Of a stretch of DNA of 64,000 nucleotides, positions 16,199-63,181 are shown piece by piece. Numbering within the stretch: the first letter of the stretch is position 1; each line of letters starts with the position of its first letter. Position numbers and translations under genes: made by a program. This DNA comes from Asparagopsis taxiformis (lineage: Eukaryota > Rhodophyta > Florideophyceae > Bonnemaisoniales > Bonnemaisoniaceae). Location: assembly GCA_030407315.1 (NCBI GenBank), contig JALQPE010002057.1, positions 1-64,000 on the forward strand, given 5' to 3'. The notes below the pieces were generated by a model that was not told where the DNA came from, searched no databases, and was given only the letters and a program-made list of their open reading frames with translations.

Positions 16199-16212
16199 CA
16201 CAGGATAAGCAA
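16199..16212 (+). repeat. Left terminal inverted repeat of the giant transposon
   Basis: CACAGGATAAGCAA, the perfect inverse of 63168-63181. The LTR flank ends in CA just before it. Confidence 0.8.
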
Positions 16213-16966
16213 AAATAGAGAATATTCCATGGAAAATGCCGTATCGTACAGTAGAACTAGTCACCATATTTTAGCGGAACGCCCATCCCCAACGTTTGGA
16301 TAAGGCCCATCGAAAAAAATGTAAAAAATCATGGGCTGAGACCAGCACGGCGATTTTGTTTTACAGTAGGCAGGAACCAAGCAGAACTATGGTGTGGCCG
16401 TGAGGTGATGGCTGAACCATGTACGGAAGGACACGTAGGGATGGAAATGAACCACGTCCATATATGAGCAGGACGGCGGGTTGACTAGAACGGGCCAAAT
16501 CACGCAGGCACGGACTGTTGGAATGGAACCAGTACTGTATATGGGTATAGTTAGATATGGGGTGCACCGTGACTGCGATATGTAGTGGAAGGTGCAGAGA
16601 GATTCGTAGAAATAAACTATGAACTATAATGGGCACACCGTGACGGTCCGGTGTCTGAAACCAGGCGTAAGCAGCACTCGCTGAATGGACGGTGACCAAA
16701 GTATGATTATTGTATTCATTGGGATAATTCCAGAGTAGGTGACTTTTTGCTTATGGGACGTGACCAAGCTGACTTGTGGAACTGGCCAAACGATAATCTG
16801 GAAAGGGACCATTGACTGGGAATATACGGCCCAAGGCAAAGCGCGGTTAGTTTCCAAACTACAGTACTGTGTAAAGCCCGGATATATTCTATTATAACAC
16901 CTGCTCGTGACACTGGTATTATTCCACCGTGGAGCACTGTAATGGGTACGGTTCACTTCCACTGGA

Positions 16967-17258
16967 TGTAGTGGTTGTACCGTCGGGTTGGCGTGGACCA
17001 TGTTCACTGGGTAGAGTAGTTGTACCGTCGGGTGGGCGTGGTCCATGTTCACTGGGTAGAGTAGTTGTACCGTCGGGTGGGCGTGGTCCATGTTCACTGG
17101 GTAGAGTAGTTGTACCGTCGGGTGGGCGTGGTCCATGTCCACTGGGTAGAGTAGTTGTACCGTCGGGTGGGCGTGGTCCATGTCCACTGGGTAGAGTGGT
17201 TGTACCGTCGAGTGGGCGTGGACCATGTCCACTGGGTAGAGTGGTTGCACCGGTGGGC
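16967..17258. repeat. 45-bp tandem repeat block, about six copies
   Basis: Units carry TTGTACCGTCGGGTGGGCG followed by TGGTCCATGTCCACTGGGTA with few changes. The period is exactly 45 bp. Confidence 0.85.
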
Positions 17259-18299
17259 GCTCTGGGTAGAAACTGAAAGGTAGAATGGGCGGCACATCGC
17301 ACTTTTGCGGAGAAACTGCAGGACGGATAGGTCTGACTGAAACGATATCTAGGTAGAATGGAAATCGGCATAGGGACAATGAATTAGACTAGGTTGCAGC
17401 CATAGCGGGTACGCAAGATTTACGATATGGTGTAGTGGATATGGAATAGGTAAATGGGCAGCTAACGCCAAAAGTTTAACGACATGAAGATCATCTGTAC
17501 ACTGCACTACGGAACTATGAACTATGCCACCATGGCAGATACTAAACGGCAAAACACTAGCTCTACATAAAGTAACTACAAATACATATAGGCATAAAAA
17601 GAGAGATGAGGGGAAGCCAGAAATTTCTGTTGGCACCTGGAAGGAAAAGAATAGATGAATCAATGGTTAGTGCTAGGAATGTAACTTCATCAACGCTAGA
17701 AGCATGGTTAGAAGCGAGAGAACATACCGTTGATAGTGGAGCCAGAGCTTGAGTAAGCGGATTGTAGAGAACCCAGAAACTTCTGCTGGCACATAGATGG
17801 AAAGAAGTGGATGACACAGTGGTTAGTGCTGGAAACGGTATGCCAAAAGCTCGATTAGAAGTGAGAAAACGTAGTAATGACAGTAGCCCTGGAGAAAGAC
17901 GAAACAGAAAGTAGGAAAGGCAGAAAAGTATGTTAGCAGAAGAACAACGAAGAACCGCAGAAAAAGACAATGGGAGGAATGGCTAAAAGACTAAATGAGC
18001 TGGAAAACCTTATCGTAGGATGGAGGCGGCGGGGCACAATCACATCCGTAGGGATGTGGTTGCACTCCGCCGCCCCATCCTGCGTAGGTGGTGTGCTCCG
18101 AGCGACAGGTGCTGGCGATGTTGCCCGGCGTGACGCAAGGCTTAAATACTGCTGCAGAGTGAGCCCAGAGGTCGCGTATTTCACTTGCGTAGTGAGAAAG
18201 CGCGCGTTTTTCGTACTGACAAATCAGAAACAAATCATCGATGATCTATGAACACGTCATGGACACGTCATGGACTCGAGATGGACTCGTCATGAACAC

Positions 18300-18339
18300 G
18301 TAATGAAATAGAACACTAGGTAGTGTTCTATTTCATTAC
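18300..18339. repeat. Perfect palindrome, 19-bp arms
   Basis: Arms GTAATGAAATAGAACACTA and its exact complement, separated by GG. It follows a short array of ACGTCATG-containing direct repeats (18248-18299). Confidence 0.85.
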
Positions 18340-18401
18340 AGCTGGCGTGCAGCTGCACGCTTGTGAGCGGAAACGTGTATTGCAGGCTGAGGAGCCAATG
18401 A

Positions 18402-18782: not shown

Positions 18783-21700
18783 TTATGCAGTCCTTGGCGG
18801 ATATCCATCTTCTCTTGCAAAGATAGAGAAGGAACCACCATCCATAAACGAAGGACCTCCATGCGTAATTCCTCCATTCGAAGTGCCTTGCTCCACAGAA
18901 CATAATGAAGGGCTACAATTGTGGAGGAGACCAACCTTACGAACCCCTGAAGTGAGAGGGAGAAACCAGGAGCCGGAATCGGTGTTCGGAGCAAACGTAG
19001 TGGGGGACGACTTCTGCTTGATAACTGGAAGAACAATAGCGTGTGGTGGAGACAGGTTTTCCTGGTGAGATTCGTGTATGCAAACGTTTCCCGGTGAAGC
19101 AATGTTTCCATCAATAGTCAGGTCAAACACGGTGGTAACAGCCCAAAAAGAAGGCGAACAGGTCTTCTGTAGAATTCTAGAAGACGGGGAAGCTGAGTAG
19201 CAAGCTTGTACTACACAGCCAGAAGCTATTTCTTGTGGCTTTGAAAAGTCCCGAGACGCAGCAGAGGGCGAAGCTGCACAGGCAGGGTGGGCAGAACTGA
19301 GACGTGCTCCCTTGCAAGGTTTTCCACGAAGCATGACTGCATCCGAATTCTGCCCACAGGAAAAATCCTGCTGTGGTAATGAAGAGGGAACTCCTGTCCA
19401 CGAGTAATATGAATATGGAGAAGAGAAGAATGGTAAAGAAGACCTATTCAAATGTTCGAGAAGGGGTTCTTGACAGAGGTCATGCAGCGTACTAGCCGGG
19501 AGGTTCTCCATGGATTTACAGTGCTCCCGTCCGAATAGAACACGAAGGAGAAACCGTTTAGAACGTTGTCTCTCCACAGATGCTGGAGTAGAATTGGAGA
19601 AACTTTTCAAAGCAAGATGGAGGCTTCCTTTCCAATAGTTTCCGAGTGCCGCTAACATAGCATCCAACTGTCTGTCAGCACCTCCGGAATGCTCTAGACC
19701 TCGTTTCATTTGTTGATGTGTTGCTTCGAATGATAGCTCAGCTACCTGGCGAGCGTGTCCGAGCAGAGGAACAGTGTGTTCAAATGCCTCAATGAGACGG
19801 TGCAAGTTTGGCTTATTGTCAAGAATCTTCCTTGCCCGGAATCCAGCAGTCTTGTTTTCCATCTCAATGTGGTCATTATCATTCGTTACTATACCTTCTG
19901 TCTGCATCTTCCGTTTCTTCGAGACCGCTGTGCTCCGCTGTCTGGTAGGAACAGTCTTGAGCAGGTCATCCACTAGAGTAGCATATTCTTTCGATAGCTG
20001 CTGCAGACGACGGAGACTGTTGTGCGCAGAATTCCCTGTAGCTCTCTGTACTGCCTCAGAACCGTCGATATTTTTTCGTGGTAGGAAGTATGTAGCTGCA
20101 GATATAGAGGACAGGAGACGAACAAGTTCTAGAGACAGATGGCGTTGCTCTTCAGAAGCCTGGAGTGACCTTGAACCGCTACCTTCGGATGACCTTGTAG
20201 TCTGCGATTGGAATTTCAGAGAAGACCTGAAGCAGTGTTCGGCGACGAGGAGAACTGCAAATCTGTCCGAGATTCCCATTGTATGAGTTTCACCTGCGTT
20301 GAAGTTATATATCCTGTTCTGATTTGCGAGGCCCAATACACGGAGGGCATCCACCATGAACCTGTCGGCCAGCCTTCTCACACCATCATTAGGCAAGCTT
20401 GAAAAAGCATTGTCCAGAGCATCCTTTGCCAGTCCATGGAGGAGATGGTCAATTCCAACAAACGTCGAACGGTATGGGTCCAGAATAGCAGGCACGACAG
20501 GGATTCGTAGACCATCGTTTCCGAGTGGTGTCCCGGTTGGAACCAGCCCTTTGGACCTAGCTTCATGAAGTAGTCTTTCAATGAGATGCAATGGAGTGTC
20601 TGTGATATTTTGCACTGTTCTCAAACCCAGATACTTCAAGATGTTTGCAGAACTTTCCGATGACTGAACAGCAGCTGTTCGCTCGGATGTGCGAAAGTGT
20701 GTATCAGAGCTCGAATGTAAACGGGTGTCGTAGCCAAACTGCGAGTTCTTCCCATATTTCCCCCCTCTTACAAAGAAACACAAATGGCATGGGCAGTCTG
20801 CGTTGTGCCCCATGACATCCAGCACATGAGAACAGGCAGGATAATCCGATACGAAACCAATAAAGTCCAGGAAAATTAGACATTCATTGCCGTCTGGATC
20901 GACATCACGAAACCCCGACGTACATCCTTGAATAATGTCTCTAGAGATATGTCGAAGGATATGGTTTGTACTAACACCAGGACCTGTGACACCGATAACG
21001 CGCACAGCAGAACTGTTCCGGCGACAGTCCAGCGGAAGACCCATTGGGAGCATATAGCATCCTCCAGCACTCCCTTTCTTACCAGAGGCTTCATTGAAGT
21101 CATCGCAGTATAAAAGAAATGGATAGACGTAGTATGTGGTACCGCAGCTGAGAACCCCACGGAGATGTGTAGGATGAAAGGGGCTGGGGCTCGTGCCTGG
21201 TTTCAATAACTTGACATTATTGATTGCACGAGTTCCGCCGACAACTTTGTAATGCCCTTCAGAGTTGACGAGAAAGAGCAGTTTTTGTGATGGGCCTGGC
21301 GGTCCGGGAGAGCTGACGACAAGCCCAATGAAGAACTGTATACCACAATTTTGAGTAGGGTTACACTCAGGACTGGGTGATAAAACTGTCAGGTGATCAC
21401 CCGGCCGAGCATATTCCCGGAACGACTCTTTCTGAAGGATGAAGGCGGACCCATATGAATGCGGGGAGACCGAAAGCCTACTATGAAATGTGGCACCGGA
21501 GTTTATCCATGAAGAAGATGTGATAGCTTTGAACGACTCATGGCTGGAAGATAGTGATTCATGTTGGAAAAGGGAACTGAGAGTAGGATCTAGAGAAGAG
21601 GCGTGCTGCCCTGATGTGACATGCAGTTCCACAATACTACCACCGAAAGCAGAAACGGGAAAGCCGTCTTTTACCGCCTCCGCCCTCATCGTGTAGTTTT

Positions 21701-22943
21701 GTCCTTTTAAGGAGTACTCTCTGAATTTTCCTAGCTTCGACTTGCACACGTTACCATGTAAACTTAGTATGTCATCCGAGTCGGAAGCATCCAATTGTGT
21801 GTTATCACGCCACGCAAGGTCGAATATATGTGGTGCAGTAATGTCTGCTCGTGCATATTCGCTTGGTGGAACGATAAGTACAGGTGCTGATTGACTAGCT
21901 TTGTTTTGTTCGACCTTGCTTCTTCGTAGAATTGCAGAAGAGGCAACACGAGCTGCACTACGCTCTGCGTTTACAGGGAAGTATACGGTTTCCGAACGTA
22001 ACCATGCGTTGAAGAACAGCCACGGTCTTACCTTCCGCATAATTGTCGAATAATGGGGTAGACTTCGCTGAACGTGTTTGTTCGTGGAACCTTGTCTAGC
22101 GAAATCGAACAACACGCGATCTTCCTGAAGGTTTGCTGCGGTGCATTTCGTCGACCCTGTCAGTTTGGCGACAGCGTACAACGTTGTCCATTCTGTCATG
22201 TAATTGCGAGCTTTGTCTGGATTGGACGTGTTCATGATAAAGGGAGAAGAGATTAGGAGCTTCGCTTCTGCCTCCTCCTGTAGAAACAGGTCGTTGTCAT
22301 CCGAATCGGAGTCGTTTGTTGCGGTGACGTTCTCATGATGGTCGGAAGCAGCGGGATGGCACAGTTTAGGAACTGTCGCAGCAGAAGTGACGGGGTCTCT
22401 GCCGGAGGATAGTACAATATCATCGTCGCTAGGAGTAATACAAGCTTTTTGAACTTCTGGAACAATTGTTCCAGAAGTATACTTGAGTATATTGTTCTGC
22501 TGCCCACTATTGGCGTACGTCAAAGGGAGGGTGGTATCCACAGAATTGCTCCCAGGTCTGAAGATATCCTGTGAAGACGAGGAAGGGAGGACTGGATCTG
22601 GATCTGGGGTCTGGGAATTGGTAGCTATGGGAGCATGGGGAGGGTTCGAAGTGCTACCATACTCTGTTGCCGGGCGAGGATGATGGGTTTCTGGTGTATT
22701 GCAGTCCATTTCCTGAACGGCAAAAGGATTTGAGACTGTTCTGGATGTCGAGCGTCTAGTCCGATTGCGGACAGGGGCTACATAGTTGAAACGGAGCCTC
22801 GGGCCATTCCTAGACTTTCTCGGTCTAGCCATATCTCGATAACCTGGATTGAGGTAGCACCTAGGTGCAAACAGCTGTTTGGAAGGGAGGGAAACGCTGT
22901 ACGCCTCTATATTATGAGGATACAAATCTCTATAGTCTATCAA
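18783..22943 (-). CDS. Tnp2/CACTA-like transposase
   Basis: An uninterrupted frame of 1386 residues; an inner Met at 22832 (MARPRKSRNGPR, basic) may be the true start. Residues 1-240 are low complexity and acidic. The catalytic core is recognisable: YPFLLYCDDFN (about 607-617), then GGCYMLPMGLP, then LIFLDFIGFVSDYPACS (about 689-705) followed by a GHNADCPCHLC cysteine motif (712-722). This matches the Tnp2 (Transposase_21) pattern of an early Asp pair, a second Asp before PA, and a CxxC. A helix with LSFEATHQQMK near 1070-1080 may hold the catalytic Glu. It should cut and rejoin the CACAGG termini. It is divergent from the ParB-like gene and intact as read. Related KDZ-type transposases are an alternative family. 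Confidence 0.7.
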   Translation of the reverse strand: MIDYRDLYPHNIEAYSVSLPSKQLFAPRCYLNPGYRDMARPRKSRNGPRLRFNYVAPVRNRTRRSTSRTVSNPFAVQEMDCNTPETHHPRPATEYGSTSNPPHAPIATNSQTPDPDPVLPSSSSQDIFRPGSNSVDTTLPLTYANSGQQNNILKYTSGTIVPEVQKACITPSDDDIVLSSGRDPVTSAATVPKLCHPAASDHHENVTATNDSDSDDNDLFLQEEAEAKLLISSPFIMNTSNPDKARNYMTEWTTLYAVAKLTGSTKCTAANLQEDRVLFDFARQGSTNKHVQRSLPHYSTIMRKVRPWLFFNAWLRSETVYFPVNAERSAARVASSAILRRSKVEQNKASQSAPVLIVPPSEYARADITAPHIFDLAWRDNTQLDASDSDDILSLHGNVCKSKLGKFREYSLKGQNYTMRAEAVKDGFPVSAFGGSIVELHVTSGQHASSLDPTLSSLFQHESLSSSHESFKAITSSSWINSGATFHSRLSVSPHSYGSAFILQKESFREYARPGDHLTVLSPSPECNPTQNCGIQFFIGLVVSSPGPPGPSQKLLFLVNSEGHYKVVGGTRAINNVKLLKPGTSPSPFHPTHLRGVLSCGTTYYVYPFLLYCDDFNEASGKKGSAGGCYMLPMGLPLDCRRNSSAVRVIGVTGPGVSTNHILRHISRDIIQGCTSGFRDVDPDGNECLIFLDFIGFVSDYPACSHVLDVMGHNADCPCHLCFFVRGGKYGKNSQFGYDTRLHSSSDTHFRTSERTAAVQSSESSANILKYLGLRTVQNITDTPLHLIERLLHEARSKGLVPTGTPLGNDGLRIPVVPAILDPYRSTFVGIDHLLHGLAKDALDNAFSSLPNDGVRRLADRFMVDALRVLGLANQNRIYNFNAGETHTMGISDRFAVLLVAEHCFRSSLKFQSQTTRSSEGSGSRSLQASEEQRHLSLELVRLLSSISAATYFLPRKNIDGSEAVQRATGNSAHNSLRRLQQLSKEYATLVDDLLKTVPTRQRSTAVSKKRKMQTEGIVTNDNDHIEMENKTAGFRARKILDNKPNLHRLIEAFEHTVPLLGHARQVAELSFEATHQQMKRGLEHSGGADRQLDAMLAALGNYWKGSLHLALKSFSNSTPASVERQRSKRFLLRVLFGREHCKSMENLPASTLHDLCQEPLLEHLNRSSLPFFSSPYSYYSWTGVPSSLPQQDFSCGQNSDAVMLRGKPCKGARLSSAHPACAASPSAASRDFSKPQEIASGCVVQACYSASPSSRILQKTCSPSFWAVTTVFDLTIDGNIASPGNVCIHESHQENLSPPHAIVLPVIKQKSSPTTFAPNTDSGSWFLPLTSGVRKVGLLHNCSPSLCSVEQGTSNGGITHGGPSFMDGGSFSIFAREDGYPPRTA

Positions 22944-23202
22944 TCTGTAGAAGAACGAAATTGGAAGGGGAGATCTCAGAGCTGACCGTTACAGTCGTTG
23001 CAGAGAACATGTTCTCTACTTCCATGGAAGCCAGGAAATAGTGCAAAGTACTGATGAGTATACATGAAGACTGAAAACTTCAAAGAATGACATAGTTTTT
23101 ACCAGAATCGTAATTCATCCTATAGTGTTTCTTGCAGCTTCGCAACTGCAGACAGAGCACTCAGTGCAAACACTATACTCCATGGAGTGGCACGGAGAAG
23201 TT

Positions 23203-23692
23203 CCAGACTAGTCTAAAATTTGGTAATTTTTTGGGCTCAAAAAGTACCAAATTTTATACCCCACTCGTAGTGACCGTATGGCTCGTACTCCGTCCTACTT
23301 TGTACCAGCGACCTTATGCCATGGAACACTCACCACCACGAGTAAGCACCACGTGGGCAGCACCTTCTATAGTTCGGTGCAATTATGTTTATCGACTATT
23401 GGTGCACAACTGTCTCGATGCATCACGATGACTAGATGTTCAAGATTGTATGAGGAGAGAAGTAGACGGACATAGATGCACGTCATGGTAATACCGGTTC
23501 GGTTTTGAACAGAGCTGCAATGCGCCGTCAATGTTCGTCAACGACCATCCAGCGAAGAAGCGTAGCATTTGGAATGTTTAGAAACATCAGTAAAGCATGG
23601 AATGCATGAACTTGACGTAGCATGGGGCAGGAGCGGTTGTCCAAATCTGGAACAGGTGGGCGCCGGACGGGTCTAAAATTTGGTAATTTTTT
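23203..23692 (+). repeat. 490-bp inverted repeat, left arm of the ParB/2OG cassette
   Basis: It matches the reverse complement of 27968-28457 at about 99% by eye. It begins CCAGACTAGTCTAAAATTTG. Palindromic TAAAATTTGGTAATTTTTT-type motifs lie at both ends of the arm (about 23213 and 23673). Confidence 0.85.
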
Positions 23693-24169
23693 GGGCTCAA
23701 AAAATTACCAAATTTCACGCCCCTTCTTGTACTCTCTTCACGACTGTTCATTGGGTACTGATTGATTTGAACGCAACCGGTGAGTCTTTTGGCGCGTGGG
23801 CGCGAATTTATTCGCATCCCTTCAGTTAACCTTCCAAACGTTACGTCTACACGATTTCCTGTCACTCTCCTCTGCTACTCATCTACTACTCCTTGTAGTA
23901 CTCCAGCACCTCAAAGGCAATTCAGATCGTGCATCTCCCTGCTTCAGCCCAACTCCCCCTGCTTTCCAAGCTTCGCTCTTCGCATCTCTCTCTGCTTCTC
24001 CCGCTTTGCATCTATCTGTATCCCCACGGTGACAGTGTCCCATCCCTCTCTCTCTTCAATCCTTGCTCTCCCGTGCCCTCTCTTTCTCTTCACTCCCTGC
24101 CCTTTTCGTGCCCACTTCACCTCTATACACCGTTCAGAGTTCAAGAGCTTGTTTATCCCACCCACAAAC

Positions 24170-25387
24170 ATGTCTCATCGTCAACGCTCTCGTCTCGCAG
24201 CTGCATCTTCCCGCGCTCCAGCTCGGGAGCTGACAGTCCCCGCGATGCCCCGGGCTGGTAGCACGCTTGCGAACTACGAGTTCCGGCAGATGACACTTCC
24301 GATTGCGGACATTCATGTCACGGAAGAAACATCGCGCGAGGTTGATGAGTCGCATGTAGATGTGTTGTTTCAGAAGATGGTTCTTGAAGGCTTTCAGACC
24401 TCTTCCGTGGGCTCCGTGACTGTCGTTGGTCTAGCCCACGAGTCCGACGAAACACGCTTCTACATCGCGGATGGTCTCCATCGTCGTGGCGCTCTTGTCC
24501 GAGCCAAAGCGGAAGGAGTTGAACGTCTGGCTTCTATTGTGGACAGCGTTCCTGTTCAGGAAGCGTTCAGGCCAGATGGACAAGCCATGACGATGGAAGA
24601 CGTGCTCTACCTGAGTCAGCGGCTGAACGAACTGGTGCACACGGTTTTACCGACCACCATCCGCGACCGTATTCATGCTATCATCAGCATATACAACTGC
24701 AACTTGAAGTACGCGAAGGAAGGGGAAAGGAAACTCTCCAGTATGACAGCTTCGCAGCTGTGCAACTGGTTCTTCCAGCGTCACTTCAGTGGCATACTCA
24801 GGAAGAGTACGGTGACGTCTATCGTCAATGTGGCTCTGAACATGAGACGTTCACCACGCACGTACGAGGCGTACAAGATGGCCTCTGGTAGGAAGGAAAA
24901 TGAGGTTGGAATCAGCCTTCTAGTGCTGAAGGACACCGCGTTCACAAAGGCTGAGGACCGTGCCAGTGAGCTGATGGTTAGGTGCATTCACTACCGCTCT
25001 GTGAAATTGCTCCAGTCCTTTGGTCGCATCCGAGGTCTCCAGCTCAGGGTGTATCTCAATTACATCAGAGATTTCTACCTGGTAATCCGTGAAGTCGCAC
25101 CCAAGGTTGGGATGACTACGGACGAGCTGGCAGACCTGGAGGACCTCGAACCGGATGGAACGGACATGATCCCGACCTGGAAATCCGTGTTCAAGCGCAT
25201 GGTTCAATATGAAGAAGAACCTGTGCGAAAACAGGAGAAGAACCACGAGCGTCGCCGAGAAGATTTCCGAACCGTCATCCTGCAACGTTTCAACATTGCA
25301 CCGGATCGTGAGACTCCGCCCCCCCTCCCGGAGCATCTGGCGATGCAGTGCTTGCCACTGCGGCCAGTCAAGGCGCAAAAGATGTAG
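24170..25387 (+). CDS. ParB-like domain protein (N-terminal part of a longer protein?)
   Basis: The start chosen is the ATG at 24170 (MSHRQRSRLA). The frame is open from 23780, but the extra stretch is pyrimidine-rich leader. Residues 43-50 (LPIADIHV) and 99-108 (IADGLHRRGA) match the two hallmark boxes of the ParB/Srx N-terminal fold, the second being the GxHRxxA motif that binds nucleotide. The remaining 300 residues are helical and unrecognised. ParB folds are CTP/ATP-binding DNA-linked switches or nucleases; in bacterial mobile elements they are often found next to DNA methyltransferases. The frame ends at 25387, but a one-base change in the C-run near 25320 would continue into the proline-rich linker, so this may be the front of one long protein. 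Confident on fold, not on activity. Confidence 0.65.
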   Translation: MSHRQRSRLAAASSRAPARELTVPAMPRAGSTLANYEFRQMTLPIADIHVTEETSREVDESHVDVLFQKMVLEGFQTSSVGSVTVVGLAHESDETRFYIADGLHRRGALVRAKAEGVERLASIVDSVPVQEAFRPDGQAMTMEDVLYLSQRLNELVHTVLPTTIRDRIHAIISIYNCNLKYAKEGERKLSSMTASQLCNWFFQRHFSGILRKSTVTSIVNVALNMRRSPRTYEAYKMASGRKENEVGISLLVLKDTAFTKAEDRASELMVRCIHYRSVKLLQSFGRIRGLQLRVYLNYIRDFYLVIREVAPKVGMTTDELADLEDLEPDGTDMIPTWKSVFKRMVQYEEEPVRKQEKNHERRREDFRTVILQRFNIAPDRETPPPLPEHLAMQCLPLRPVKAQKM

Positions 25388-25854
25388 GGAAGGAGAGCGA
25401 GAAAGCGGCAGAGAGCGTTCCTGCTCCTGCCCCTGTGGCATCAGCCACTCCTCCGAAGTCACCATCACAGGTGACTCGGCAGGCTCGCTCTCCGACCCAA
25501 TTCGGGGAGAATATCATGGAACCTCTCCCCGTTCCCCTTCCCTCACAACCCCTTCCTGAGGACGAAATCAATCCGATGGACATTTCTCCTCCTGACCCCC
25601 AAGCCAAGCCGGACTCAACAGCCCGCGCCCCTTCCCCCTCGAAGCCCAACTCTCCTCCCCCTTCCCCCTCCAAACCCAACTCTCCTCCCCCTCCCCCTTC
25701 CCCCTCACAACCCGACTCACCCCCCGCTCCCCCATGGCCGTCTCCCCACCCACGTCTGCTCCTGTTCCCGACTCTGCTATCGCCACGGAACCGCAGAACC
25801 CCGAAACCTCGGTTGAAGCTTCTCAACCGCAGGGGGGTGGTGGGGGGACAGTAG
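25330..25854 (+). CDS. Proline/serine-rich linker frame between ParB-like and 2OG regions
   Basis: In the +1 frame relative to the ParB-like region, reading continues with GDAVLATAASQGAKDVGKES. It then becomes a long Pro/Ser/Lys-rich tract with repeats of SPSKPNSPPP. Near 25730 another C-rich run shifts it into the frame of the zinc-finger/2OG region. The tract is simple-sequence protein, typical of linkers. It makes sense only as the bridge between the two flanking domains. The frame breaks coincide with homopolymer C runs, so they may be slippage or sequence error. Confidence 0.45.
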   Translation, partial: GASGDAVLATAASQGAKDVGKESEKAAESVPAPAPVASATPPKSPSQVTRQARSPTQFGENIMEPLPVPLPSQPLPEDEINPMDISPPDPQAKPDSTARAPSPSKPNSPPPSPSKPNSPPPPPSPSQPDSPPAPPWPSPHPRLLLFPTLLSPRNRRTPKPRLKLLNRRGVVGGQ

Positions 25855-27707
25855 TTTCACGCTCTGTGCGCATTCCGCCCGATGAAACTACGCCACGCCC
25901 CTTTCCCTGCTCGCTTGGATCACACTGTCGCTTCCCCGGCTATGCCGCTGTGCACAAATGCACAGCGTGCAACATTAAGCCAGTACACAACCTGTGCGAC
26001 TATCCTCTAGTATATCACCTCATCCCCATCAAGTACCTCAACAACGGTGAGCGAGACATGGTGTTCGTCTGCTCCCGTGAGTGCTACGATGGCCGTCAAC
26101 CGGATGACCCCCCTTCTTGGACCCCTCCTGCAGGGGTCACGTTACAAGAAGCGTGGGAAGGTGATGCGTACAATCCTTTCGAAAAGGACGCGTCCTCTAC
26201 CGAGTCTGCTGAAGAAAAGGATAAGCAGACCGGTGAGGCTCCGCGGAGTACGATGGGAGGGAAGGCGCCCATATCCCGGGAACCAGCCAAGAAAAGTGCC
26301 TCTGGAACACCGCGGCGGGGAGAAAAGAGGAGGAGAGAGCCGACCACTCCTCCTCCGACTCGGATGACTCGGTCCAAGACTAGAAGTGCCGCTATCGCAG
26401 AGCAACTCATCGCTCTCGGTAGCCCGTCTTCTCCCCCTGTCTCCCTTCCGCTTCCTGCACAGCCACCCTCATCTGGCGAAAAGGAGCGTGAAGGTGAGAT
26501 AGAAGACGGCGAAACCCCTACAAAGACGAAGGTGACTTCCAAGGGGTTTCGGGTACACAGGTATGAGGACGAACAGCCACCGCCACCTTCCTTTCTCACG
26601 GAGCAGACCACGCTTGCCCAAGCTGCTACGTTCGTGCGTTCAATTTCGGGTCTGCTCCATCCTGAACACCGCTCTGGGTTCATCATGACGAGTGGGGAGG
26701 TGGAGGAGATCAGGGAGGATATCAACTCCGCGGCTGGTGGTACATCCGAGGAGAGGATTGTTTATTGGGAGCGGGCAAGGGCTAGTATTGATTTCGATGG
26801 ATACATCGTCCTCGAAGACATACTAGGAGCTTCCGATGTACGGTCTGCAATCCACGAAATGCTCTCTGGGTTTGCCCAAAAGTTCGATGACAATGTGGAA
26901 GGGGCGTGGGGCACGATTCTGAACTCCGGTTCAGCTGCCGAGGATGCCCGGGGTGGCGCGTCTCGCCAGCGGTACATGACCCCCCACTCGGCTGTCATTG
27001 AAGACCTCGACGGGGAGCAATCCATGTCGCTGGCTCATGACAAGGTTTCCGTGGATGTCATCCTCGCAATTATAGCGGAAATGTTGCACTTGGAGGATTC
27101 CGTTTCATCTTTGAACGGATTCAAGAAAGGCTCCAAGCTGCGCTTTGGGAGGACAGGACTTCGGATGCTCCTGACGGGTTCCAACTGTACTCGTCAGATC
27201 CCGCATCTCGACTTCACGTACCCAGGACCGCCACGCGAGGAACCGAACCGCTATTGTGGGACCCCTGCACCAGACCCAGACTATTCTTTCATAGCTACTG
27301 CTGCAGTTGGGTCCCCAATTCTGGTACGACCGCGGAGTCATGCCTTCCTCAACGCCCCTCGTGATGCCTTCCTGGCCGTCTGGCCCCATCTCCATCCAAA
27401 ATTGGTTTGGATTCCACCCTTCGCTGTTCTCGTGACTCGTGGTGACGTAGAGCACGCTGGTCCGGGATGACAGGATTACAACTTCGTGAAGGACAAAATT
27501 TCTAAGACTGGAGTACAATACGGTCATCACATTCGAGTCCATAGCATGGCTGTACGTGATTCTTCCGAGCTAGTCAATGATCTCGTCTACGCACCGGTGC
27601 AGAGTGACGACCCCAATCGTCTGCCGAAACCTTACGAGTTCGCACACGACTTTGAGTCGGACGATGAGGTACCGGATAGTAGTGAAGATTACATAACAGT
27701 TGAGTAG
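25734..27707 (+). CDS. Zinc-binding region plus 2OG-Fe(II) dioxygenase, in-frame TGA at 27468-27470
   Basis: Residues about 59-117 hold ordered Cys/His pairs (C59, C65, C76, C79, H85, C88, C113, C117), a PHD-like zinc module. A basic nuclear-type segment (GEKRRREP) follows. The C-terminal domain has the double-stranded beta-helix signature: QIPHLDF with H491 and D493, a SPILVRPRSHAF strand pair, and the distal His in TRGDVEHAG (H574). After a single in-frame TGA the same frame continues to 27707 with HHIRVHS, supplying the Arg expected to bind 2-oxoglutarate. The family uses Fe(II) and 2OG to hydroxylate substrates; TET/JBP members act on DNA. The substrate here is unknown. The TGA removes the last strand if not read through. 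Confidence 0.65.
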
Positions 27708-27967: not shown

Positions 27968-28457
27968 CTAAAATTACCAAATTTTAGACCCATCCGGCGC
28001 CCACCTGTTCCAGATTTGGACAACCGCTCCTGCCCCAGGCTACGTCAAGTTCATACATTCCATGCTTTACTGTTGTTTCTAAACATTCCAAATGCTACGC
28101 TTCTTCGCTGGATGGTCGTTGACGAACATTGACGGCGCATTGCAGCTCTGTTCAAAACCGAACCGGTATTACCATGACGTGCATCTATGTCCGTCTACTT
28201 CTCTCCTCATACAATCTTGAACATCTAGTCATCGTGATGCATCGAGACAGTTGTGCACCAATAGTCGATAAACATAATTGCACCGAACTATAGAAGGTGC
28301 TGCCCACGTGGTGCTTACTCGTGGTGGTGAGTGTTCCATGGCATAAGGTCGCTGGTACAAAGTAGGACGGAGTACGAGCCATACGGTCACTACGAGTGGG
28401 GCATAAAATTTGGTAATTTTTTGGGCTCAAAAATTACCAAATTTTAGACTAGTCTGG
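27968..28457 (-). repeat. 490-bp inverted repeat, right arm of the ParB/2OG cassette
   Basis: Reverse complement of 23203-23692 with only a few substitutions. Outside the TAAAATTT ends both arms show GACTAGTC, an 8-bp self-complementary sequence that could be a target duplication. Confidence 0.85.
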
Positions 28458-28823
28458 CGACCGTCTGTAGCTAATGGGGCTTGAATTTAGGTGCAGTGTC
28501 TCTGTATTATTAGTGAAGCTGGCTCAAGGTTGTGGAGATTTTGTTTAATGCACTGTCATGATACAGAATGCGCCCAAGCTGCATACCCGTTCAAAACATT
28601 GCACCCCTTCACCAATCTTCAACAATCAAACTCCAAACTCTTTCATCATCCCGCGACCCCTCGTCAGAAATCGGGGCTTCCATAAATTCCAATTTCAAAT
28701 TTTGCGGGCGCGCGGAAAAATCTCCTTGCCGTCCTGTCAGGCACATGTGCCGGATTGCATTGCAATCTTCTCTACCAATCTATCGCATTCTCTCTTCTCC
28801 CTCGTTCCCGAGCATCCCCTGAA

Positions 28824-37150: not shown

Positions 37151-37659
37151 AGTGACGGCGGAGAAGTGGAATTCCACAGGTTAACCTGCGGCGTCGACTG
37201 GACAGCTTTCAACGTCAGCTTAAGTCCTGCTGTGCATACTCCATATCATCGCCGGTATTGAGATTAATAATGGCCCAAGCCATGGTCTCTGAACTCCCGA
37301 ATGATGAGATCCGGATCGAGAACATCGGAATGGTATAATCATATATATCACAATCCATTTGCTTCCCTTAAATGATCCCTGTAATATCCACTGTAAAGCA
37401 CAAACTTATTCCATGAAGTTCGCAATTAATATAATTTTATTATTTCAAATGAATTAATTGAAAATCCATCTCCCACGGCGGTCATTCATCCTTCCAAGCG
37501 CACGTTGCCAGCAAAATGTGTGACCTAGCGGTGATGATTGATCGCTCAGGCACATTCCACCATTGGGCTGCCAGAAGTGAGCACAAAACTGATACCCACA
37601 AAACCACGAGAACATTACAAACGAGGTCTCGAACGCACATTTGGAGTACAATATAAATA

Positions 37660-45204: not shown

Positions 45205-45399
45205 TTGTGGAGTATGCGTCTGGTGGTTTGTAAAGCTTGCAGAACGGGATAGGGATGTGGGTGGCTCCATTTTATGAATACATGAATACAAATATTCAGG
45301 GTTGACGAAGCGGAAAGGCATACGCTCATACATGTATGAGTTTGCATAGTGGAGAAAATATTTACATCGAAATTTACATGGAAGAGATGGAGGTTTTAA

Positions 45400-53271: not shown

Positions 53272-53297
53272 CGCGCGTCGCGTATCCGTTGGATGGA

Positions 53298-56671: not shown

Positions 56672-56676
56672 ACTTT

Positions 56677-57583
56677 CTCTACTGCAGTTGCATGCCTTAC
56701 TATGCACCACGGTCAGTACAGGAGGTTTGTGGGGTGTGAGAAGTTCACGGACTGCTTTGAACTATCCCTTCCTAGAGTCAATCTTGCATTTCTGCAGCAG
56801 GTCTCCATTGGGAACTCTGCTCAACAGTCCACGCCCGCCCTGCAGCAGCTGGCCACTTCTCAACTCGGAACTTCCGATGACGATTCCCACTCGAAGAACC
56901 CCTCCAGTTTACCAAGTTCGACACAACTTCCACCCCACCTCATCAGCTTTCTGACCGCCATTTGGTGCATCCCAGACCAGCACAATGACTTGATAGACCT
57001 TCCTATTCACAAATGGCCACAATCACTGCTGGGCTTGTTTTCCACCATGGATAGTAAAACCCTGCTATCAATTGATGCAATGGCACACAATGTATACGTT
57101 GCAACTTCAACTATACCTGCAGCTGGTGATGGACTCTTCGCAAGAGTAGATAGTGATCCAGGAGATATCGTCGGGTACTATTTTGGGGCAGTGGTTTACA
57201 AGGATCTCTACCAAGCAAAACTGAAGACGTTTGGTACGGGTCCGACTTCGTTCTCGATTGAGTGCTTCCAGAAGTACGCAGTTCAAATCAAGGACCCAAA
57301 TATCACCTGCTTGCTTCCGTCTACGTCTGGCCGCCCCATCTTCATTGTTCCATTCGAGTATTGCGCTGCTTCGAAAATCAACGACCCAACGTTCGTGGAT
57401 CCAGCAGAGGGAACCAATCGCCCGTCGCGAACTGCTAATGTTAGTTTCTCCTCCCCTGTACAAGAACTCATCAGTGAGAGCTCTGTGTCTAGCTACCAAG
57501 TTGTATGTGTTACTGCTAACGAGGCTATCTCAGCTGGCTCCGAGCTGTTTATCGAATACGGTCATGATTACTTCACTGTCTAG
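56677..57583 (+). pseudogene. DNA methyltransferase 3' part and SET domain (split gene)
   Basis: This continues in frame from 31386: the first residues complete methyltransferase motif I and give the RRFVGCEKFTDCFELSLPR segment expected after it (motifs II-III). A Ser/Gln-rich linker of about 70 residues follows. From about 57080 there is a SET domain: NVYVATSTIPAAGDGLFARV with the GxG-like start, DIVGYYFG, ANVSFSS in place of the NHSC motif, and AGSELFIEYGHDYF with the catalytic-type Tyr. SET domains methylate lysines, usually in histones. The NHS region is degenerate, so activity is uncertain. A DNA methyltransferase joined to a SET domain in one protein is unusual. The gene is now broken by the 25-kb gypsy insertion. 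Confidence 0.8.
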
Positions 57584-57769
57584 CTGTTACCCTCTCACAG
57601 TCAAATTTCACAAGTAAATCCATCTCCATTAATGTTTTCACTCTGTTTCCCATACCTTCAATTTATTTTTATCGTAATGTACTCTTTCCCCCCAAGCAAG
57701 AAATGCGTAGAAGAATTTCCCGTTTGGTACGTAATGCGTCTGCATAAGGTTGGACAAGGTATATTCTGT

Positions 57770-57897
57770 GCGTAAAATTTGGTAATTTTTTGGGCTCAAA
57801 AATTACTGCAGTAAAAACTGATCTACCCGAGTGCACTTTGCTAGATCAGTTTTTACTGCAGTAATTTTAGAGCCCAAAAAATTACCAAATTTTACGC
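57770..57897. repeat. 128-bp near-perfect palindrome
   Basis: Arms start GCGTAAAATTTGGTAATTTT, pass through ATTACTGCAGTAAAAACTGA and return in inverse order around a short centre. The outer part equals the ends of the 490-bp arms. It could be a miniature transposon or a two-way transcription stop. Confidence 0.85.
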
Positions 57898-58402: not shown

Positions 58403-58699
58403 TTTCCCCGAATATACCTTAGCCTACGTTCTGCAAACACATAGAGATGTAACCAAAATAACTTCTCTGGCTGATTGCATTGCTGGCTCCATTGCTTTTG
58501 GGTATGCCCAGGACCGTTACTGCCCGCAGCTTTTGTAACGGCCGTACCAATGTCCTTATCCGTTACATCTTCCGTCTATGCTCGAGACAAGTTTCCCCCT
58601 GGTCTCTTCTACTTATCCTTCCCTTCTCCTCAGCAACGTTTCCAGTTCTACTCAAGTACTCTATCCTGGGCGTGAACCATTCAACGGTTTCCAGCAAAA

Positions 58700-60373
58700 A
58701 TGAGAGATGATTTATCTTTGACTAGGTTTGCAAAGTTCGAAGAACGGTTCGCATCCCTCGAACAGTACATGCGCGATTCCCTTTCGTCTATTCAATTGGA
58801 GCTGGCGTGTATTCGATACATGGCCTCCGCTGCTGCCGGAACAAACACTGTCCCTTCAGTTGTTCTGGATGAGAGATCAAGAAAAGCAGGTCAAATTGCC
58901 ACGCTGGTGTCTGCTCTGTTCAACAACAGGCAGGTGACATCTCGATTCGTCGCTTTCAGAACTGTTGCAGAGCTTGTTAAAACCTTTGTTGACGCCAATT
59001 TGCTCAACAATTGTAATTCGAGGTCTGCAACATCACCACAGGTGGATTCCTGCACAACGTTGCTTCTTGCTGCCCTGTCGTTTTCGCAGACTTCAAGTTC
59101 AAATTCTGAGGTAAGGCAATCTAAGAGATCTCTTATCGGAACGGCAGTAGGGAAACGACATGTGTTCTTAAAACGCTCTATTATCGGAACTGCGTTTATT
59201 TCAATGGCAAATGACAGAATTGTGCGATGGAAGGACTCGACGAGCAGGAATGCTGGTGTCCTCGATCCTGGGGAGGAGGAGGACTTGAACAGCAATACTC
59301 TATCTCGAGACTATGCACTACGCAATGCTACAATAGTGCCCATCGAAAAGCCGTCTTGGCTGCACATTTCCCAACGAGCTCTTTTCCATGCCATGGATAT
59401 TTCGATGCCCACGGAGGCAGAACGAAACGTGGAACAGTCTACGAATTTGCAGGTTACTCTTTCAAAGCGTCGCCGACTGTCTGGTTCGAAAGAAGCACGC
59501 CGTACTGGTACATCCTCTTCCTCTTCTTCCGCTGTATCCAACCTTTCTCCGTCTGACTTACAGTCTATTCCGATTATTACCTCTGCACTACGGCAGCTTA
59601 CACAGTTCCTCAACACTTCCCGGAAACAGATGAAAATGGAATTGGTCAAACAAGCATTCTTCCTTATCCACCGAGATATGAAGGCAACTGTGGATTTTTC
59701 TCCTGCCCATGCTGTTTCCACAACAGAAATGTGTCCACCTGACTCTATTCCGACAACTTCGAGAGCTTACGGAACAGGAGAAGAAGCTCTCGAAGTGTAT
59801 TCAAAAAATGATTCCATCTTCTCAAATTTCATTCTGAGCCGTCCTGAGCTTCACATTCAGGTTACTTACATAGTTCAGGTGAGCGGTGATATCGATGGTG
59901 AAAACATTGCGAGTACGCGAGTGGAGAAGTTGGCTGTCTGTTCATTCTCCTTTCTTACTCTAGCTATGATATTGTTATGCAGTTTTTGCCAATGTACACA
60001 ACTGGAGATGCTCTGTCATGAACCTCATGCTATTCAAGCATGTTATAAGATTGCAATATGCCTCCAAGGTTTATTTAACGAAGCCCTGAAACAACAGCCT
60101 ACATCTCATTTTGGGAAGGATGGATTCCCCTTGCGCGTTACATGGGGACATCTTGAGCTCCGGGACTACCCCATGGGAGGTGACTGCCTCACGGGGATCA
60201 TTAGAAAGAAGAGAAACCTAACAGCACAAGAATACGAGTCTGTCCGTTTCGTTTCAGGCTTCAGGCATACTGAGCGCTCAGAAGATAACCCAGCAAACAG
60301 ACCAGTTTCCAATCATGATTGTGTACCTCTCGAGGAGGATGATGAACTTGGTATTTCTTTAATTGGCATGTAG
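58700..60373 (+). CDS. Cargo protein of unknown function, 557 residues
   Basis: The frame from ATG 58700 is unbroken. The N-terminus (FAKFEERFASLEQYMRDSLS) is a likely short coiled coil. The middle is Ser-rich with a nuclear-type basic patch (LSKRRRLSGSKEARR). A hydrophobic stretch near residue 410 (FSFLTLAMILLCSFC) could be a membrane segment or buried helix; it directly follows a GTGAGC that resembles a splice donor, but no acceptor keeps the frame. The C-terminus is acidic. I recognise no domain. Its position inside the giant transposon, next to another accessory gene, suggests a role such as the second protein (TnpA-like) of CACTA elements; this is only inference. Confidence 0.6.
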   Translation: MRDDLSLTRFAKFEERFASLEQYMRDSLSSIQLELACIRYMASAAAGTNTVPSVVLDERSRKAGQIATLVSALFNNRQVTSRFVAFRTVAELVKTFVDANLLNNCNSRSATSPQVDSCTTLLLAALSFSQTSSSNSEVRQSKRSLIGTAVGKRHVFLKRSIIGTAFISMANDRIVRWKDSTSRNAGVLDPGEEEDLNSNTLSRDYALRNATIVPIEKPSWLHISQRALFHAMDISMPTEAERNVEQSTNLQVTLSKRRRLSGSKEARRTGTSSSSSSAVSNLSPSDLQSIPIITSALRQLTQFLNTSRKQMKMELVKQAFFLIHRDMKATVDFSPAHAVSTTEMCPPDSIPTTSRAYGTGEEALEVYSKNDSIFSNFILSRPELHIQVTYIVQVSGDIDGENIASTRVEKLAVCSFSFLTLAMILLCSFCQCTQLEMLCHEPHAIQACYKIAICLQGLFNEALKQQPTSHFGKDGFPLRVTWGHLELRDYPMGGDCLTGIIRKKRNLTAQEYESVRFVSGFRHTERSEDNPANRPVSNHDCVPLEEDDELGISLIGM

Positions 60374-60499: not shown

Positions 60500-61129
60500 T
60501 CATTTTATGTACTCCTCTGCCCTTTTCTCTGACACACTATACCCCACCACATCATTGACCACATCTTCCGATATTAACTTGCCTATTCTACATGGTTCTT
60601 CCACACCACGGAATATGACATACGGCATATGCACTCTCAATGTTCCCCACAACATGTCACCAGCCCTTCCTCTTTTCCTTTGCGTCGTAGGTTCCCATTC
60701 AATGCGGAAACATTTCTTTCTTTCGCTTCTCCACCCTTCTAGACTCCCGTCACCATCGAACCCCCCGTGCACGCCACATATCGAGGGACATTCCTGCAGC
60801 TCCATTCCGTTCACACATCCACCTTGGACTACAGCACTACCGTTGCGAGCCAGACACCATACGTTCGATTTAGATCCGGCAATGCAGAACGAGCTACTGC
60901 CAATTGCAACAGATGTCGACTGTGCTTCCATCGTTTCCGAGCACAATATCGTACCAAACAACCGCAGAGCACATGGCCTCGCTGTTCCGTTCATGTCACC
61001 ACACTCTTCATTCTCCTCCCCTTCCGAGTTGCTTATGTTACGCCTATGAACCAGAGACTCAGTTCGCCATCTGTGCCCCAATCCTAGCAGATCCGATAGT
61101 GTGGAAAAACTGGAACACGTAATGTTCAC
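60500..61129 (-). CDS. Possible continuation of the Tudor-like gene
   Basis: A 209-residue frame overlaps the stop of the gene upstream (GTGA at 61126-61129). Its composition, with several Trp and Cys (SKSNVWCLARNGSAVVQGG, ERKKCFRIEWEP), is more protein-like than the opposite strand frame at 60363-61049. It may be the C-terminal part of the upstream protein after a frameshift. No domain is recognised; weakly supported. Confidence 0.3.
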   Translation of the reverse strand: MNITCSSFSTLSDLLGLGHRWRTESLVHRRNISNSEGEENEECGDMNGTARPCALRLFGTILCSETMEAQSTSVAIGSSSFCIAGSKSNVWCLARNGSAVVQGGCVNGMELQECPSICGVHGGFDGDGSLEGWRSERKKCFRIEWEPTTQRKRGRAGDMLWGTLRVHMPYVIFRGVEEPCRIGKLISEDVVNDVVGYSVSEKRAEEYIK

Positions 61130-62193
61130 AGCTTCTCCGCCATTTCAAGCCACTGCCGCGTGAAGCCCTGGGTACACTTTGTAATACCCCCTCGATAGGT
61201 TTCTGCTGTTCCCTTTAGCATTTCCCGGAATAGCTCAGTGCTCAATGAGATTGGAATCTGGACAGGTCCGCTAATAGCCGTTCCACTCGTGCATGCACCG
61301 TCAATCTCACCATGTGGGTAGCCACCCCCTGGGGTTGACAAAGTGCTTCGATTAACCTGTTCCACAACTTTCTCTACCGCACGCTGCAAGAGCATTAACA
61401 AAATCTTACCAGCCGATACTGTTGATGCACAATTTAGAACCCTTTCGTTCCAACCAAGCCGAATCTCGCTAGCATTTCCAGAAAGCATTATATTTTCTAG
61501 TGTTCTCAGCCTTGTCTCCATACCACTGTATGTTTTGACGTCAAGTGCTGATTCCACTTTTGGCTTCTTCCTCTGCGGTGATATCGCTTCAGATTCTCCA
61601 TCTGATTGGTCATGACATTCTACTCTCTCCGCTTCGTAATCCACAGCCTCTCCATTGCTCGTTCGCCACGGTGTCGGGGGCTGGCCCCCCGACATCAACT
61701 TATTTCCGAGCAGAAACTTTACGTTTTCGTAGGCGACACAAGGATAATTCATTTCAGGAATAGCATCGTATAACAATCTGCCTTCTGCCACTGCCATTTC
61801 ATTATGACTCGGCTTCACAGCGTTCGAATGCCGCCACGTAGTGACTTCCAAGACTGATATCTCCTTTTCCTCCCTCGTCAACCTCACGATTGCATCATCC
61901 ACATCCTTTCCATTCTGCTCCACCACACCAGGCGTGTACATTCCATATCCTCTGTCTACGTCGATGCGGTCTCCCACTAACGGCTTACCACTGCAGACAG
62001 GATACTGCTCAGGAAGTTTCATTTCCACAACCGTAGCCTTCCACCATATTGCGTCATCGCCAACTTGGAACCATACGTCTATTTCCGTTCCGACACATGG
62101 GAGTGCATCTACGGCAGCTGCCCGCTCACGCTCACGACCAGCTTTCGCTTTTTCGCTCTGTCGCCTAATTCGCAATGATTCACGCCTCGTCAT
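61126..62193 (-). CDS. Cargo protein with possible Tudor/agenet-like N-terminal domain
   Basis: 355 residues from ATG 62193. The N-terminus is basic (MTRRESLRIRRQSEKAKAGR). Then comes GTEIDVWFQVGDDAIWWKAT, which resembles the first strands of Tudor, agenet or related chromatin-reader barrels. A further segment has YGMYTPGVVEQNGKD. The centre holds a nuclear-type SPQRKKPKVE and a helical region (YSGMETRLRTLENIMLS). It converges on the upstream + strand gene. The domain call rests on pattern only. It could read chromatin marks or bind the subterminal repeats. Confidence 0.5.
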   Translation of the reverse strand: MTRRESLRIRRQSEKAKAGRERERAAAVDALPCVGTEIDVWFQVGDDAIWWKATVVEMKLPEQYPVCSGKPLVGDRIDVDRGYGMYTPGVVEQNGKDVDDAIVRLTREEKEISVLEVTTWRHSNAVKPSHNEMAVAEGRLLYDAIPEMNYPCVAYENVKFLLGNKLMSGGQPPTPWRTSNGEAVDYEAERVECHDQSDGESEAISPQRKKPKVESALDVKTYSGMETRLRTLENIMLSGNASEIRLGWNERVLNCASTVSAGKILLMLLQRAVEKVVEQVNRSTLSTPGGGYPHGEIDGACTSGTAISGPVQIPISLSTELFREMLKGTAETYRGGITKCTQGFTRQWLEMAEKL

Positions 62194-63167
62194 AGTTCCT
62201 CCACGAAATAAAGATACTACAACGCACTATCTGTAATTTTGTTTAGGACAAGTCTTCGTCGACTTCTTCACTAGATACTACTTCACCCATGTCTGTAACG
62301 TCCAATTTTTCATTTTTATCGTATGATACGAATTCACTACCTTGTTCCCTACTGCTGCACAAGTTTACAAATCCACTAATACTGCGTTTAAGATACTAGT
62401 AACGCTTAAAGCCAGGGCGGAACTCACTATTCAGGTCAATCTTGTGTATGCGGGAGTGACTTTATTACAAAATTTTGCGACTTCGACAGTAACTATGCCA
62501 TAGTATCTGTGCTATAAATCAACAGAGATGGTGCCATTCTTTACTAAGTAATACTACAGGAACTAAACTCAAGTACAATTATCTACTCTTTCGACCGTAC
62601 CCTACCTATGGTAGAACAATGGCCATATCGAGATTAGCTAGTTCACGTCATACACTCTGTATCTCGCCTCTTTCATATGATTCTGCATGGACGTCCAAAA
62701 CGTGTCGTCATCGAAGCGTATGGCGCGTTGGAACAGTCAGCACCACTCCATCCCTCTACCATCACTACATTGCTACGACTACCACCAGTACCTCAGACCG
62801 GCGTGACCATCAATGTTCATGGTTCGAGTCCAACATGGTACTGTCATACATATGGTTCCCTCGTTTCGTGATTCCAGCAAGTAAATTCAAAAAATAATGG
62901 AATATGCCACCTCCGGTCACCGTCATGACCAACGCGACGTGTCTTTGTCCTTTCCAATGTTATTTTTCCGTACAGTAGTGGAAAATTCCACCATGTCACG
63001 GTGCTTATACCCACTCCCACGGCGCAGTTTCATTCCACTCTATTCTTTACGGTATTTCCACTACTTATCTATGGCACGGCGCCGGTAATTTCTGCGATTT
63101 TTTATGGTTTGCCATTCCACTAATTTCTAATGGTCCAGACCATAAAATTTACTGGTTTTTCAAAAAA
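62194..63167. other. Right subterminal region of the giant transposon
   Basis: No supported gene. AT-rich with repeated short motifs such as GTGGAA/TTCCAC and ACCATAAAATT near the end. Corresponds in position to the left subterminal region. Confidence 0.5.
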
Positions 63168-63181
63168 TTGCTTATCCTGTG
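63168..63181 (-). repeat. Right terminal inverted repeat of the giant transposon
   Basis: TTGCTTATCCTGTG, the exact inverse of 16199-16212. The LTR resumes with CACCCG directly after it. Confidence 0.8.

Follow-up and report, generated by a model that had tools for sequence, protein, structure and literature searches.

A giant EnSpm/Plavaka-like transposon of the red alga Asparagopsis taxiformis with a DNA methyltransferase-SET protein and a ParB-like fusion protein among its cargo

A stretch of 64,000 bp from the red alga Asparagopsis taxiformis (assembly GCA_030407315.1, contig JALQPE010002057.1, positions 1-64,000; the whole stretch is called the window here) was analysed together with the genome it comes from, which was searched as 141.5 Mb in 3156 contigs. 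Almost certainly, the window holds one copy of a real DNA transposon carrying a DNA methyltransferase fused to a SET domain, a ParB-like protein with a putative dioxygenase region and two further genes. The evidence supports a giant CACTA/EnSpm-like element that mobilises this cargo. As to its purpose, we lean slightly towards a self-marking transposon, whose cargo enzymes would impose a chromatin state of the element's own.

A sequence-only reading of the window had described matching 14-bp termini at both ends of a segment that splits one long terminal repeat (LTR) into two fitting halves, and both observations were borne out. The termini were examined by pattern match, genome-wide count and junction alignment, and the target-site duplication by junction alignment.

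16197-16198, no strand: target-site duplication CA, left copy
16199-16212, forward strand: left terminus, CACAGGATAAGCAA
16958-17252, no strand: left subterminal tandem array, 45-bp unit, 6.6 copies
63168-63181, reverse strand: right terminus, inverted copy of the 14-mer
63182-63183, no strand: target-site duplication CA, right copy

In the window these two sites are the sole matches to the 14-mer at two mismatches or fewer, and because 4 of 100 shuffled windows also gave at least two such matches, the pair by itself is modest evidence. Across the genome, the exact 14-mer was found 225 times (96 forward, 129 reverse) and a one-base variant, CACAGCATAAGCAA, 95 times (46 and 49), with none on either strand for the reversed pattern of either. 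The element is inserted within an LTR: read across the junction, its two flanks together match the LTR that an inner retrotransposon carries in the same window. This LTR, without the element and without one of the two CA dinucleotides, provides the empty site that had been proposed as a check. Paired ends gave 2-bp target duplications of CA (window), TC (C635), TG (C1000), TG (C86) and GT (C2263), so that five of six independent loci show a matching duplication (chance of at least five of six, about 5e-6). The sixth locus is represented by contigs C98 and C384, which carry one and the same insertion with identical flanks, pointing to two haplotypes or a duplicated contig; copy counts are therefore somewhat inflated. 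Long terminal repeats on the transposon itself were rejected, as the best local match between its first and last 300 bp is 14 bp.

The organization of the element is seen in an uninterrupted copy in contig C2263, with 22,061 bp between termini. Its stop-to-stop frames encode a transposase of 1401 amino acids (aa) on the reverse strand, a ParB-like/Cys-His/2-oxoglutarate (2OG)-type protein of 1226 aa (hereafter ParB-2OG) and a methyltransferase-SET protein of 1203 aa, both on the forward strand, an unnamed gene in overlapping frames of 203 and 351 aa and a possible Tudor-like protein of 575 aa on the reverse strand. The genes named by the sequence-only reading are found in it, but the ParB-like and putative dioxygenase parts form one open reading frame (ORF), and methyltransferase, SET and an N-terminal part form another. 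One gene per ORF of that reading was accordingly rejected, and its separate cargo genes are parts of fused proteins. The 47-kb span was likewise rejected as the element's own length, since it includes a nested 25.3-kb LTR retrotransposon. The window copy matches C2263 at about 98-99% identity in long pieces, breaks off after window position 31386 and resumes at 56672. The nested retrotransposon splits its methyltransferase-SET gene, the frames of both cargo genes are broken and the Tudor-like ORF is shorter (366 vs 575 aa). The transposase frame is open, with 1 substitution in 1401 residues compared to C2263, and the unnamed 565-aa ORF is open in the window and split into two frames in C2263. 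The genes lie in the window as follows.

18783-22988, reverse strand: transposase, 1401-aa stop-to-stop frame with YCDDFNE, SDYPA and CHLC motifs, probably EnSpm/Plavaka-like
23771-25387, forward strand: ParB-2OG protein, first part, frame broken here
25596-27470, forward strand: same ParB-2OG protein, second part, with Cys/His-rich and 2OG-type regions, shortened here
28686-30737, forward strand: methyltransferase-SET protein, N-terminal part, in another frame than the methyltransferase part in this copy
30659-31386, forward strand: DPPY DNA amino-methyltransferase part, interrupted by the LTR insertion
56672-57583, forward strand: remaining methyltransferase and SET domain
58676-60373, forward strand: 565-aa ORF with no assigned function (P0007)
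61126-62226, reverse strand: possible Tudor-like protein, 366 aa, no family match

The methyltransferase-SET protein is the best supported cargo. A DPPY methyltransferase fused to SET had been proposed from the window, and Pfam matched both domains in one protein, with the SET profile PF00856 above its cut-off. In 15 relatives taken across the range of similarity, N6_N4_Mtase was found in 15 and SET in 13 (E up to 0.01). DPPY or DPPF is present in all 68 protein-database relatives, of which the three with an organism name come from Chondrus crispus, Pyropia vietnamensis and Pyropia yezoensis, and residues of the SET region recur among them (G1026 in 59/60, Y1030 in 54/60, C1085 in 56/61, N1110 in 58/58 and E1145 in 55/58). 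One database protein, P0012, is the methyltransferase-SET protein of a second subfamily of the element (1162 of 1165 residues). Between the subfamilies, the nonsynonymous and synonymous distances (dN and dS) were 0.251 and 2.14 for the whole gene, 0.145 and 1.82 for the methyltransferase part and 0.12 and 2.87 for the SET part; these are Nei-Gojobori values from one pair of copies with saturated dS, to be read as dN far below dS. The protein is thus apparently under purifying selection. ParB-like and methyltransferase domains do not share one polypeptide here, with the N-terminal region of the methyltransferase-SET protein lying outside the PHROG search described next.

The second large cargo protein appears to combine a ParB/sulfiredoxin-like domain, a Cys/His-rich region and, probably, a 2OG-Fe(II) dioxygenase. 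Residues 88-180 matched PHROG_1033 (ParB-like partition protein; E 3.6e-4), a profile that matches two of three family members (best 7.8e-5). A fold search with an AlphaFold model of the protein put ParB-N structures in its top three places (5k5d, E 1.7e-3, probability 1.00), followed by sulfiredoxin; as the mean predicted local distance difference test (pLDDT) of the model is 32.9, this search was used for the ParB-like part only, where the independent profile agrees. Profile and fold together support the ParB-like assignment made earlier. In the 2OG-type region, H1013, D1015, H1096 and R1123 (HxD...H...R) are invariant in all three proteins compared, the most distant of which is about 22-25% identical, and we take these residues to be the metal triad and the 2OG-binding arginine. 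At least 49 genomic matches to the protein were found, with 39 of 8564 candidates scored. The gene is flanked by 488-bp inverted repeats (98%) at 23203-23690 and 27970-28457, with matching repeats in C2263; they are perhaps the trace of a once nested unit with which the gene arrived.

With regard to class, the four transposases known share YCDDFNE, then SDYPA, then CHLC or CHVC and later FEATHQ, so that a C(2)C motif (SDYPA followed by CHLC or CHVC) is present in 4/4. SDYPA...CxxC presumably corresponds to the second-D region of Tnp2/Plavaka transposases, with its D as the second catalytic D; no H(3-4)H was found at a place common to the four after CxxC, and the DDE triad is only guessed. The termini are of the CAC...GTG type, with CACAGGATAAGCAA inverted at both ends, and begin with CACAG rather than CACTA. 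In the available part of PMC12730594 the CMCT clade is defined by target duplications of 2-5 bp, a range that includes the 2 bp found at five of six loci. The same part gives 3 bp for fungal EnSpm and TGT..ACA or CATCA..TGATG for the termini of fungal Plavaka A and B, and the termini here differ from these Plavaka definitions. On the basis of the C(2)C motif, the termini and the duplication size, the element is named CMCT, EnSpm/Plavaka-like, and not CACTA proper.

Copies of the element's genes are numerous in this genome, while scans of viral contigs with three queries gave no relatives. For the methyltransferase, at least 128 copies were found (128 of 4295 first-look candidates scored), mostly in two groups about 94-98% and 72-74% identical, with many open frames near 1203-1215 aa; for the Tudor-like ORF, at least 112, which fall mainly into three groups and often have frames 575-592 aa long; and for the transposase, at least 35 matches (33 scored of 2121). 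Besides that of the window, 10 of the 35 listed transposase matches show 100% identity (rounded) over at least 1391 residues, which speaks for recent activity. Distances to termini were taken from 100 listed termini of the 225. On contigs C1-C1725, a terminus stands where it would be expected beside 15 of the 18 listed transposases, and 24 of 49 listed Tudor-like ORFs have an exact terminus in the right orientation no more than 4 kb away. Additionally, 45 of 128 listed methyltransferases are followed 4.1-5.6 kb downstream by a convergent Tudor-like ORF. Copies holding only the transposase between the termini, or cargo genes at the same place without the termini, had been named as signs against the transposon. 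Neither was seen: the complete C2263 copy holds the same genes, and listed copies of the transposase, methyltransferase and Tudor-like genes recur with the same spacing to a terminus or to one another.

The second subfamily shows the same pattern. An exact right end lies 5.9-6.6 kb downstream in 33 of its 51 listed methyltransferases, and this end is sharp in five of five copies, differing from the first subfamily at one base in 50. Eight terminus pairs stand 20.4-21.5 kb apart, all with a methyltransferase and seven with a listed Tudor-like ORF, and four further pairs of 27-38 kb hold both genes. Among five listed first-subfamily pairs of 21.8-38.4 kb, two contain a listed methyltransferase and three a listed Tudor-like ORF. 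Three much shorter pairs, each spanning about 2.05 kb and holding no listed cargo (C286 19886-21941, C2415 41383-43430 and C2416 10229-12281) are probably non-autonomous second-subfamily derivatives; one more pairing, of 35 kb in C2415, spans one of them.

A palindromic repeat, in a 43-bp short and a 120-bp long form, occurs at three junctions of the element: between the transposase and ParB-2OG genes, between the ParB-2OG and methyltransferase-SET genes and after the latter.

23203-23715, no strand: intergenic region with palindromic sites (TAAAATTTGGTAATTTTTTGGGCTC...), including 23203-23255 and 23663-23715
28393-28445, no strand: palindromic site between the ParB-2OG and methyltransferase-SET genes
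57762-57893, no strand: paired palindromic sites downstream of the methyltransferase-SET gene

The 20-bp palindrome core has 454 exact matches in the genome, against 0 for the reversed pattern, and is common to both subfamilies (e.g. C134, C348). Of 100 listed cores, 93 have an element gene or terminus no more than 25 kb away, by a hand-copied and incomplete list of places. The repeat may serve for addressing, may act as promoter or terminator, or may be a miniature inverted-repeat transposable element (MITE) that was nested long ago.

The sequence-only reading had drawn an analogy to fungal KDZ transposons with TET/JBP dioxygenases. The dioxygenase-like protein gave no Tet_JBP match in Pfam, and a whole-genome search for C5-cytosine methyltransferases (PF00145), the writers of 5-methylcytosine (5mC), yielded no candidate, while 10 of 14 control genomes gave matches; the control genomes are prokaryotic, however, and a gene split by introns or missing from an incomplete assembly could have escaped. 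Searches of the genome with Tet_JBP and MT-A70 carry no information, as they gave no match in any control genome. As neither a Tet_JBP match in the protein nor a PF00145 writer in the genome was detected, the TET-like reading is disfavoured, and erasure of host 5mC does not seem to be how the element works. With no 5mC writer detected, the element-borne methyltransferases are candidates for the main DNA modifiers of this genome.

A self-marking transposon would work as follows. The transposase would cut and paste the element in the EnSpm/Plavaka (CMCT) manner. The methyltransferase-SET protein would write a DNA mark on the element's chromatin, N6-methyladenine (6mA) more likely than N4-methylcytosine (4mC), and its SET part would add a histone-lysine mark to the same chromatin. 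The ParB-like protein would perhaps address this marking at the palindromic sites between the cargo genes, and the dioxygenase would remove or alter an opposing methyl mark. The resulting self-imposed chromatin state may keep the element expressible or time its transposition. The earlier proposal of a set that writes, erases and reads marks to hide from or reset silencing is supported in its writing part, where methyltransferase and SET match Pfam; the Tudor-like reader found no family support, and TET-like erasure is disfavoured.

Several results weigh against this account. The transposase matched no Pfam family at E up to 10 (0/4 members), so that the Tnp2-like label rests on its motifs; PDB and NCBIfam sequence searches gave no usable family for it, and an AlphaFold model of its core (mean pLDDT 33.6) found nothing in a fold search. 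EnSpm/CACTA proper has 3-bp duplications where this element has 2 bp, and the C98/C384 locus has no matching duplication. Of the earlier label, a CACTA-like element with a Tnp2-like transposase, the CMCT-type termini and the C(2)C motif stand, while the Pfam result, the duplication and the CACAG start do not fit CACTA proper. The fold search for the ParB-like part gave no match reaching E 0.001. The 2OG-type region, previously called a zinc-binding/2OG-Fe(II) dioxygenase, has its HxD...H...R residues invariant in three proteins, but no Pfam, PDB or NCBIfam match, and the low-confidence model does not confirm the double-stranded beta-helix fold of such enzymes. For the possible Tudor-like protein, Pfam, NCBIfam and PDB sequence searches gave no family match, so that the Tudor label found no support. 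Instead of addressing sites, the palindromes may be promoters or repeats of the MITE kind, and the selection estimate comes from a single saturated pair. Of the listed methyltransferases, 83 of 128 have no listed convergent Tudor-like ORF nearby and eight have one within 8 kb in another arrangement, while 25 of the 49 listed Tudor-like ORFs on C1-C1725 have no exact first-subfamily terminus within 4 kb; contig ends, incomplete lists and the variant terminus account for some unpaired copies, though perhaps not for all. Finally, the earlier reading had proposed looking for pairs of termini that lie 15-25 kb apart and enclose the same gene set. In the second subfamily this holds for the methyltransferase and, in seven of eight pairs, the Tudor-like ORF, but among the matches listed no transposase or ParB-2OG copy lies inside its eight pairs, few candidates having been scored. 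This slightly weakens the self-marking explanation.

A stronger form of the proposal is that the transposon and not the host owns the DNA-methylation machinery of the genome, with ParB reading the palindromes, one polypeptide writing 6mA or 4mC together with a histone mark and the dioxygenase resetting them; this we consider tentative and rather doubtful. It is also conceivable, if unlikely, that the cargo enzymes regulate transposition itself, by marking replicated or hemimethylated termini or by chromatin-gated excision, and do not counteract host silencing. Two points agree with such control. It is doubtful that the host has a 5mC-based silencing system from which to escape, given that its genome gave no 5mC methyltransferase. 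The terminus also appears constrained, since only one base in the final 50 bp of the right end distinguishes two subfamilies whose coding dS is saturated. However, no support was found for a target sequence or for hemimethylation control, and a SET domain fits poorly with a purely DNA-based switch. Anti-silencing by erasure, as proposed for fungal TET/JBP transposons, would give the main part to the dioxygenase, which would strip a silencing mark from the DNA, and a secondary part to the other enzymes. It has a precedent in the transposon-borne TET/JBP genes of 11 transposon lineages including EnSpm and Plavaka (available part of PMC12730594), but given a protein that is unmatched by Tet_JBP and a genome in which no PF00145 writer was detected while 10 of 14 controls matched, we find it improbable.

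It is very improbable that a large element merely picked up the cargo genes as neutral passengers. In favour of this, nested insertions and accessory genes without a known function are frequent in giant transposons (PMC12477816), and most cargo frames are lost in the window copy. Against this, the methyltransferase and Tudor-like genes hold their places in two subfamilies, dN is far below dS, DPP[YF] is kept in 68/68 relatives and long open frames persist in many copies. Host genes lying by chance between unrelated termini, an explanation for which nothing speaks beyond the initial view of a single locus, are refuted by tens of copies at repeated terminus distances with different flanks. The self-marking transposon stays the preferred explanation, held as slightly more likely than not.

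Genome growth in the red alga Bostrychia moritziana is reportedly attributed by Petroll et al. 2025 to giant Plavaka transposons. The element described here resembles these giant red-algal EnSpm/Plavaka elements (Petroll et al. 2025) in its red-algal host, its giant size (22,061 bp) and its accessory genes, a likeness of description. Both giant EnSpm elements of red algae that bear accessory genes and algal transposon proteins of the ParB-methyltransferase type have been published, as the available text of PMC12477816 indicates. In the same text, Sola1-1_Ec32 of Ectocarpus is a 21.5-kb DNA transposon with an 1104-aa protein joining a ParB-like domain to an N4C/N6A methyltransferase, and its authors suggest that such proteins may bind and modify their own transposon (PMC12477816). 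In contrast, the ParB-like domain here is fused to a 2OG-type region and the methyltransferase to SET, in an EnSpm-like element.

Other parallels are more distant. The bdelloid rotifer 4mC system is said to use an amino-methyltransferase. It is similar in placing a bacterial-type DNA mark in a eukaryote, but there the mark is the host's epigenetic mark (available part of PMC8885841), whereas the enzyme here is transposon-borne. The fungal TET/JBP-carrying EnSpm, Plavaka and KDZ elements are likewise DNA transposons, some of them CMCT, with an accessory dioxygenase (available part of PMC12730594), and differ from the present case with its ParB-like fusion, no Tet_JBP match and no detected 5mC writer. 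HarbingerS and MuDR elements of Phytophthora also encode SET, in other transposase superfamilies, and the accessible part of that source mentions no SET-methyltransferase fusion (PMC12730594). The earlier statement that no described element has such a set must therefore be narrowed: accessory-gene giants and ParB-methyltransferase proteins are published, but this set of fusions was not found described. Our literature search found neither a methyltransferase-SET nor a ParB-2OG fusion on a transposon, which is not proof of novelty, the cargo of the Bostrychia giants not having been compared. The methyltransferase-SET and ParB-2OG fusions look like something new within a known kind, as do the palindromes at the gene junctions and the setting in a host where no 5mC writer was detected.

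Further features of the window and genome were recorded alongside the transposon.

31387-56671, no strand: nested LTR retrotransposon, 25.3 kb, with LTRs to 32193 and from about 55865, not the transposon's own

This retrotransposon is flanked by the target duplication ACTTT (31382-31386 and 56672-56676), its LTRs are 99.6% identical over 808 bp and its ORF at 49085-50023 matched a chromodomain (E 2.5e-7). Inside it, a very large inverted array at 37659-45205 has arms of 850, 696 and 708 nt with 96-100% complementarity and units near 500 bp, and contains a ACACACAA run. A related Ty3-type element lies at 10501-15566 of the window. Elsewhere in the assembly, a 224-kb contig holds 11 of 13 phycobiliprotein matches, one of them allophycocyanin beta by PDB matches, in keeping with a red-algal host; two equal-score matches on it are 177,170 bp apart, a spacing that would suit a circular plastid genome read round.

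How DNA methylation and histone methylation are coupled is a central question of chromatin biology, usually approached through separate enzymes. A mobile element whose protein joins a DNA methyltransferase to a SET domain, is apparently under purifying selection and has relatives in other red algae offers a natural system in which to study it. If the host truly lacks a C5-cytosine methyltransferase, any DNA mark in this genome may have been brought by transposons.

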